DNA from: Natrarchaeobius oligotrophus | GTDB taxonomy: Archaea; Halobacteriota; Halobacteria; Halobacteriales; Natrialbaceae | Assembly (NCBI RefSeq): GCF_003841465.1 | Contig: NZ_REFZ01000005.1 | Span: 186,001-250,000 of the forward strand | Reading direction: 5' to 3' | DNA: 64,000 nucleotides | Part shown: in pieces, positions 28,002 to 29,769 of the stretch | Numbering within the stretch: position 1 is the first letter of the stretch | How the letters are laid out: every line of letters begins with the position of its first letter | Position numbers and translations under genes: made by a program | Notes under the pieces: generated by a model | What the model saw: the letters and a program-made list of their open reading frames with translations, nothing else | What the model was told of the DNA's origin: nothing | Database searches by the model: none

Positions 28002-29033
28002 TTACTCCGGCTTCAGTCCGCCGTCCTGGACGCGCATGACGGCCTCGCCGTCCGCGAGGTTCGGCGCGTCGACCAACCGGACGATCCGTTTGTCACCCTT
28101 GGACTTTCGGAGGTAGATCCGGAACGTCGACTTGTGGCCCAGGATGTTGCCACCGATGGGCTGGGTCGGGTCGCCGAAGAACGAGTCGGGGTTCGAGGCG
28201 ACCTGGTTCGTGACGATGACCGCCGCGTTGTAGAGGTTGCCGACCTTGTCGAGGTCGTGGAGGTGCTTGTTGAGCTTCTGCTGGCGGTTCGCGAGCTCGC
28301 CGCGGCCGACGTACTCCGCGCGGAAGTGGGCGGTCAGCGAGTCGACCGCGAGCAGACGGACGGGGTACTCGCTGTCTTCGTGCTCGCTCGCGAGTTCTTT
28401 CGCCTTCTCTGCCAGCAGCATCTGGTGGTTCGAGTTGAACGCCTTCGCGACGTGGATCTTCTCGAGGATGTCCTCGATGAGCGCGTCCATCGCGTCCTCG
28501 TCGCCGGGCGAGCCCTCGATCTCGCGGTCCTCGAGCGTCGCCGCGATAGCCTCGTCCGGGAGGCCCCGGACCATGTCGTCGATCCGCTCGGGACGGAACG
28601 TGTCCTCGCTGTCGACGAAGATGGCGCTGCCGTGAAGGCCGCCGACCTCCTTGGGAAGCTGGACGTTGACGGCCATCTGGTGCGTGACCTGGGACTTGCC
28701 GGATCCGAACTCGCCGTAGACCTCCGTGATCGACTGGGTCTCGATGCCGCCGCCCAGCAGGTCGTCGACCTCGTCGATGTGCCAGGTGAGCTTGCCGATC
28801 TCGTTTCGTCGCTCGAGTACCGTCGAACCGGTCTCGAAGCCGCCGACGTCGGCGGCGTCGCGGGCGGCGCGAACGATGTCCGCGGCGGTGGAGTCGCCGA
28901 CGTCCGCCGTGTTCGACAGTTCGGCCGGCGAGGCGACCGCCAGACTCTGGAAGGAGTCGAAGCCTGCGTCCGCGAGTTTGTCAGCCGTTGCCGGTCCCAC
29001 GCCGGGGAGTTCCTCGAGATCAACTTCGGGCAT
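28002..29033 (-). CDS. radA: DNA repair and recombination protein RadA
   Basis: A 343-residue archaeal RecA/Rad51 recombinase. The N-terminal helix-hairpin-helix domain starts [20 protein letters not shown]; the ATPase core has Walker A 'GEFGSGKS' (107-114), 'QMAVNVQLP' and '[26 protein letters not shown]', then the L2 region 'TNQVASNP'. It forms filaments on single-stranded DNA and catalyses strand exchange. The ATG at 29033 matches the conserved start. No intein is present. Confidence 0.96.
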
Positions 29034-29559
29034 ACTCCGTCGTTGTCCCGGCCACCCCATAAAGCCTCGTTAACAGGAGAGTGAAAGTGAAAGTGACGGG
29101 CTGCGGCGGGGTGCTCGAGATCGGAGCCGAGAGTTTAGGTACGAAGGGGAAGACGCGTGGCCGGATGGGTATCACTATCAGTGGATAGTGACACGGGCTG
29201 TACGGTGGCGCGGTTCTGTGTGTGGAATGCGCGCGGACGGCTCGAGAAACACCTGACCACTGCCGCCCATCGCCCAGCGTCCCAACAGTTAGTATCCTAA
29301 CGCTTTTTACGATTGGTTTCGAACCTAATAAACGCGCACGAAAGTGCGCAGAGCCGGAGTGATCACCACCAAGCAAGCACTCCGGCTCATACACGACCCC
29401 CGCGTAGCGGGAGCAATCCACCATTGACGCCCCCGAAATAAAGACCTGCCGACGTGTCGTCGACCCAAGGCCTCCCGTCGGTTCGCCGGGTCAGCCACAG
29501 ACGATACTGGCGTTTCGGGTGGGTTGTGCTCCGCTACGTCGGGTCAGACGGAGCGACAC
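29034..29559. other. Long intergenic region downstream of a zinc-ribbon gene and upstream of radA, with a structured RNA
   Basis: 526 bases. The left end should carry the radA promoter (minus strand). The middle holds a TATA-like CTTTTTACG (about 29302-29310) followed by three hairpins listed as a ncRNA. To the right of it there is no recognisable gene until the small zinc-ribbon gene at 29560. Confidence 0.5.
29331..29411 (+). ncRNA. Probable structured non-coding RNA with three hairpins
   Basis: Three adjacent helices can be drawn. H1: GCGCAC (29334-29339) with GTGCGC (29344-29349) closed by a GAAA tetraloop of the GNRA class. H2: GAGCCGGAGTG (29351-29361) with CACTCCGGCTC (29378-29388), an 11-bp perfect stem with a 16-base loop. 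H3: CCCGC (29399-29403) with GCGGG (29407-29411) with a 3-base loop. A TATA-like sequence about 25 bases upstream fits a start near 29330. No matching RNA class (tRNA, 7S, RNase P, C/D or H/ACA) was recognised. The RNA may extend to about 29440. Confidence 0.55.
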
Positions 29560-29739
29560 ATGGTCACGAAACTCACCATCCACTGCGACTGTGGTACCGA
29601 CGTCCGAACCGAGACGACCGACGGAACGATTGCCTGTCCCGACTGCGAGTCGGCGTTCGAAATGACGATCGTCGAGTTCGTTCTCGAACGCGAGAGGTCC
29701 AGCCGCCGCTCCGGCACTCGCTCCTGTCGCGGTCCGTGA
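29560..29739 (+). CDS. Small zinc-ribbon-like protein
   Basis: A 59-residue protein: MVTKLTIHCDCGTDVR..., then 'ACPDCESAF', giving CxC and CxxC pairs 15 residues apart, a likely one-zinc ribbon. The tail is basic and ends in Arg/Cys-rich residues. Start ATG 29560. It converges with the beta-propeller gene to its right. No family name can be given. Confidence 0.55.
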   Translation: MVTKLTIHCDCGTDVRTETTDGTIACPDCESAFEMTIVEFVLERERSSRRSGTRSCRGP

Positions 29740-29769
29740 GGAACGCCACGAAACGGCGCTTTCGCCGCG

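Follow-up and report, generated by a model that had tools for sequence, protein, structure and literature searches.

To our knowledge, few archaea-specific structured RNA families are known beyond guide, SRP and RNase P RNAs. The closest described RNAs are haloarchaeal intergenic sRNAs such as Haloferax volcanii sRNA132, which the relevant passages of the source present as short, intergenic and non-coding, with an archaeal promoter of their own (PMC6560208). On the protein side, the comparable systems are the stand-alone HalOD1 proteins (PF18545), whose domain is presumed to serve as a signalling output and may bind metal (PMC5847659, passages on HalOD1), and the zinc-finger microproteins of haloarchaea, which have fewer than 70 aa and two cysteine pairs (PMC6562870; PMC11241148) and include Brz (PMC2253796).

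The locus described here lies in a window of 64,000 nucleotides from Natrarchaeobius oligotrophus (contig NZ_REFZ01000005.1, positions 186,001 to 250,000 of the forward strand), numbered here from its first base. It very probably encodes a structured, stand-alone RNA some 127 nt long, read from the minus strand behind a TATA-like box of its own and divergent to a zinc-ribbon module with or without HalOD1 (Table 1). Such an RNA would resemble sRNA132 in being short, intergenic and non-coding and in having a promoter of its own. It is set apart from the sRNA132 type, as described in those passages (PMC6560208), by belonging to a conserved multi-hairpin family with up to ten copies per genome that is locked to zinc-ribbon/HalOD1 genes. 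Many copies have a downstream protein of the same kind as the stand-alone HalOD1 proteins, and the HalOD1 passages of PMC5847659 do not mention an RNA. The zinc ribbon is likewise small and carries two cysteine pairs, but unlike Brz (PMC2253796) it is paired with a structured RNA and falls outside both Brz and all Pfam families at cut-off (best match A2L_zn_ribbon, 17.8 bits against 22.9; NCBIfam gave none). The family, the strand, the promoter-like box and the module are all well supported by sequence comparison. The complete reading, which adds that the RNA is a partner of the module, is the one we favour, with some reservation.

Table 1. Positions of the predicted RNA and associated features in the window.
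Feature	Position	Strand	Description
Inserted unit, RNA and zinc-ribbon gene	29146..29763		About 0.6 kb between radA and a PQQ-repeat gene
Predicted structured RNA	29288..29414	-	Predicted 5' end near 29414, about 127 nt; supported by covariation, G.U bias, promoter spacing and fold (z -5.2)
Hairpin 1	29396..29414	-	GCUCCCGC-UAC-GCGGGGGU, 8 bp
Hairpin 2	29351..29388	-	GAGCCGGAGUG...CACUCCGGCUC; 11-bp perfect stem, arms 29351-29361 and 29378-29388; 16-nt loop 29362-29377
Hairpin 3	29334..29349	-	GCGCAC-UUUC-GUGCGC, 6 bp
Conserved tail	29286..29311	-	CGUAAAAAGCGUUAGGAUACUAACUG; possible small hairpin GUUAG-GAUA-CUAAC at 29288-29301
Putative TATA-like promoter box of the RNA	29435..29445	-	GTCTTTATTTC on the minus strand
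Zinc-ribbon microprotein gene	29560..29739	+	Divergent to the RNA; 59 aa; CxC...CPxC; C-terminal RGP

The three hairpins span positions 29334-29414 and have a stability well above chance (z about -5). The minus strand at 29288-29418 folds at -58 kcal/mol (z -5.2), a value equalled by none of 200 shuffles, and the plus strand at 29331-29450 folds with a z of -5.4. A preliminary description of this DNA had proposed a new structured RNA with three helices here. The helices are as it described them and recur in about 90 related copies; compensatory changes occur in all three, and Rfam 15 holds no family that matches the region, even at E values up to 5. The 11-bp perfect stem was retained unaltered. 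The 6-bp stem (GCGCAC-GAAA-GTGCGC) was also correct, but not its GNRA loop, since the RNA reads from the minus strand and the GAAA becomes UUUC. The third stem, given as 5 bp, is indeed a hairpin but extends to 8 bp on the opposite strand.

The strand is indicated by the way in which the stems vary. Across 93 copies and 24 pairs, the stem cells read on the minus strand comprise 2061 Watson-Crick pairs, 134 G.U, 12 A.C and 15 other combinations, and on the plus strand the same 134 cells become A.C mismatches (134 A.C against 12 G.U). As helix variation takes the form of G.U on the minus strand and of A.C on the plus strand, we read the RNA from the minus strand; the binomial p of this bias is 3e-27, uncorrected for the relatedness of the copies. 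The minus-strand fold is also the more stable one in 83 of the 93 copies. This reverses the direction first proposed, and the plus-strand TATA-like box put forward with it (CCTAATAAAC) in fact belongs to the tail region of the RNA itself, the conserved box lying on the minus strand. A plus-strand 5' leader of the zinc-ribbon mRNA, riboswitch-like or autoregulatory, would suit both the location directly upstream of that gene in the close family and the good fold of the plus strand with its GAAA tetraloop. It is very unlikely in view of the A.C excess, the greater stability of the minus strand and a fixed-spacing TATA-like box whose minus-strand orientation points into the RNA.

Covariation supports the same helices. 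In a diverse alignment of 37 copies, double compensatory changes were found in 11 of the 24 pairs. Cells with double changes numbered 40 against a shuffled mean of 7.3, and none of 500 shuffles reached 40, although these counts overstate significance because the copies are related and the alignment was fitted with a model of the same structure. Sliding the pairing partners destroyed the signal, and RNAalifold, given the same alignment and no structure, recovered the helices together with two apical hairpin-2 pairs, one of the two alternating between CG and GC. In hairpin 1, 97% of cells are paired and four of eight pairs have double changes. Hairpin 2, the 11-bp stem in which the preliminary description had proposed to look for compensation, has 98% of cells paired and double changes in six of ten modelled pairs; its two apical pairs switch from GG/CC to GC/GC in many copies. 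In hairpin 3 (98% paired), one pair has double changes and four have one-sided variation only. The stems of distant copies are visibly different, for example GAGAGGGAG/CUCCCUCUC in place of GAGCCGGAG/CUCCGGCUC.

Upstream of hairpin 1, the box reads CTTTATTT (CTTTAT-type) in 81 of 93 copies and CTATAT or similar in distant ones. Of the 93 copies, 91 have exactly 25 nt from the A of the box up to hairpin 1, although the intervening DNA is variable. From the distance that normally separates TATA box and start in archaea, transcription would be expected to begin on or close to the first base of hairpin 1, near 29414, and to run toward radA. An apparent promoter at a fixed distance, as expected of a stand-alone non-coding RNA, is therefore present at the sequence level.

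The preferred minus-strand RNA has two further competitors in the window. The radA gene is co-directional and lies some 260 nt downstream of the RNA, which could make the element a leader of radA or, in other copies, of whatever minus-strand gene lies downstream. This has very little probability: the next likely gene, assigned by a heuristic, lies on the opposite strand in 32 copies and on the same strand in 16 (33 undecided) and differs among copies, and the radA genes of relatives have no such element. The second, still less credible, is that the region is a small protein gene, as an ATG-started minus-strand frame of 134 aa (29020-29424) passes through the hairpins; the distances between hairpins 1 and 3 are spread over all three frames (37, 30 and 26 of 93 copies), so that the copies have no common frame. 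The broader class of cis-regulatory leaders and riboswitches was rejected, the conserved neighbour being divergent and the downstream genes variable. Elsewhere in the window, Rfam matched only a tRNA-Arg at 555-629, and ARAGORN called a tRNA-Asp at 28220-28310 inside radA, which is probably a false call.

The tail is strongly conserved within the close family and is loosely matched in some distant copies. Its consensus motif has no other occurrence in the genome within one mismatch, and we saw no clear U-run terminator for the RNA. Many copies have perfect complementarity over 10 bp between GGUGGAUUGC, which precedes hairpin 1, and the tail sequence GCAAUCUAUC. In the window (29411-29425 and 29305-29325) and in some other copies, this complementarity is shortened or broken. 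The candidate closing stem would lie mostly upstream of the predicted start, and judged by eye it has no clear strand bias.

The RNA belongs to a dispersed family of about 90 copies overall. By DNA search, we detected eight copies in the genome that carries the window and two to ten in each of seven relatives. The covariance model R1 matched 31 of 125 Natrialbaceae genomes, with 1-10 matches per genome, and found diverged copies in three families outside the Natrialbaceae. The distribution is patchy, most Natrialbaceae genomes being without the RNA; carriers include species of Natrinema, Halopiger, Natrialba and Natrarchaeobius. The RNA-only model R3 added further distant copies, including those in genomes G309, G185, G375 and G119 (the last only just, at E 0.009). 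No copy was found in viruses or plasmids by an exact-pattern scan of IMG/VR and blastn of PLSDB and phages, and the open-licence papers searched (supplements outside the scope) do not describe the RNA. The family is new on this evidence, and its pairing with the zinc-ribbon gene occurs as many as ten times in one genome. One Natrinema pallidum locus (L071, G105:C72:92289-92527) has one full and one truncated RNA copy side by side, separated by a partial zinc-ribbon match; this arrangement is the remnant of a tandem duplication. In Halopiger djelfimassiliensis (L011, G026:C2:626792-629950), two RNA/zinc-ribbon/HalOD1 units are 1.5 kb apart, and between them is a short CRISPR-like array with at least four exact copies of the repeat GTTTCAGACGAACCCTTGTGGGGTTGAAG.

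The zinc-ribbon protein and the RNA are found in the same genomes and are paired copy by copy. A simple motif search of 88 copies found both a zinc-ribbon and a HalOD1 frame in the divergent position in 54, the zinc ribbon only in 17, HalOD1 only in 11 and neither in six, so that 82 of 88 have at least one of the two. In many copies, the HalOD1 gene starts within the zinc-ribbon frame. Pfam HalOD1 (PF18545) was matched at 41-56 bits, against a cut-off of 26.3, in three distant copies and one other. The copy in the window has the zinc ribbon and no recognisable HalOD1, HalOD1 is also absent from some other copies, and the zinc ribbon is absent from copies L072 and L061; in L028 (G026:C3), the zinc-ribbon coding stretch is a run of N. 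Four of the five distant copies examined, those from G309, G185, G375 and G119, have a short zinc-ribbon and/or HalOD1 gene divergent to the RNA, and neither was recognised at the fifth (G250:C12). The strongest independent evidence for the distant matches being real is that copies found by an RNA-only model have the same neighbours. The tail of the zinc ribbon is arginine-rich, which would be unusual in an acidic halophile proteome. Its AlphaFold model is poor (pLDDT 70, pTM 0.40) and too weak for a fold search. HalOD1 is itself a multi-copy domain, with 34 matches in the window's genome, a small subset of which adjoin the RNA; tblastn of one HalOD1 against phages gave no matches. A type III toxin-antitoxin system was considered and rejected, the RNA being divergent and not a tandem repeat and no toxin family being matched.

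At the radA/PQQ-repeat site, homology with relatives breaks off near 29145 and starts again near 29763, and 71-160 bp separate these points in the measured empty sites (G001, G002, G015). Eight relatives are empty at this site, and in G003 the element occupies the same position. The common branch of G003 and the genome of the window (G000) therefore gained the unit, unless it was lost many times elsewhere. The preliminary description had proposed to look for conservation of the stems at radA neighbourhoods. There it is absent, the sites being empty, but it is found beside zinc-ribbon/HalOD1 genes at other sites; that test was mis-aimed because the element is conserved with those genes elsewhere. 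In Natrinema, the unit occupies another site that is orthologous across about 14 species. Non-orthologous copies are homologous from the end of the RNA to about the HalOD1 stop, over some 650-750 bp. Sequence comparison shows that the RNA and the zinc-ribbon gene, with or without HalOD1, are dispersed as one unit. As for the features of a MITE, an insertion and empty sites are seen, and the element ends are approximate.

About 19 of 92 copies, one of them deeply diverged, have the hairpin-2 loop reverse-complemented with respect to the stem, so that it reads CCAA where most copies have UUGG; the flipped counterparts of window positions 29362-29377 are in L016, L024, L071, L072, L114 and others. 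Kissing between UUGG and CCAA copies is not required, as single-copy genomes have either form. Inverted loops would fit recombination across hairpin arms, and with the highly conserved stems, multiple copies, patchy occurrence and empty sites they could suggest that the inverted repeats work at the DNA level, forming the termini or recognition hairpins of a mobile element that is non-autonomous and has no RNA function. This is nevertheless improbable to a high degree: a role as DNA would explain neither the excess of G.U over A.C on one strand nor the exact spacing of a TATA-like box, neither a transposase nor a flanking target duplication was identified, and the Natrinema unit is stable at its site.

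The main rival of the partner role is a trans-acting antisense role, in which an sRNA would use the hairpin-2 loop or the tail to pair with mRNAs, with the zinc ribbon as its mere regulator or a hitch-hiker. The promoter-like box and the exposed, conserved loop and tail would suit it, and intergenic sRNAs of haloarchaea have been reported to have mRNA targets (PMC6560208). We regard it as doubtful, though worth weighing: a fixed antisense target would not tolerate a loop in both orientations, the complement of the tail motif is confined in the genome to the elements themselves, and the tie to zinc ribbon and HalOD1 holds across families.

The constancy of the pairing with the zinc-ribbon microprotein suggests, tentatively, that the RNA is a partner, or a regulator, of the zinc-ribbon/HalOD1 module, a step to which we give somewhat less than even weight. 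Most likely, the zinc-ribbon protein would bind the RNA, which would either form a small RNP with it or act as a sponge that sets the level of free zinc-ribbon protein. In 13 leaders, no other AT-rich box was seen between the box of the RNA and the zinc-ribbon start, and one box may therefore serve both directions. Expression of the RNA and the operon would then be balanced over a shared, possibly bidirectional, AT-rich promoter at 29435-29445. A self-dispersing RNA-protein module, in which the RNP would reach further intergenic sites of archaeal chromosomes with no transposase of its own and feed into HalOD1 signalling, seems unlikely.

With HalOD1 as a presumed signalling output domain, the RNA, zinc ribbon and HalOD1 may form a small regulatory switch. 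The covariance model of the family could become an Rfam entry. With its covariation, promoter-like box and fixed partner, the RNA lends itself to direct functional tests in cultured Natrinema species, and the module gives a concrete context to HalOD1 proteins and zinc-ribbon microproteins, two groups that are plentiful in haloarchaea and for the most part lack an assigned function.
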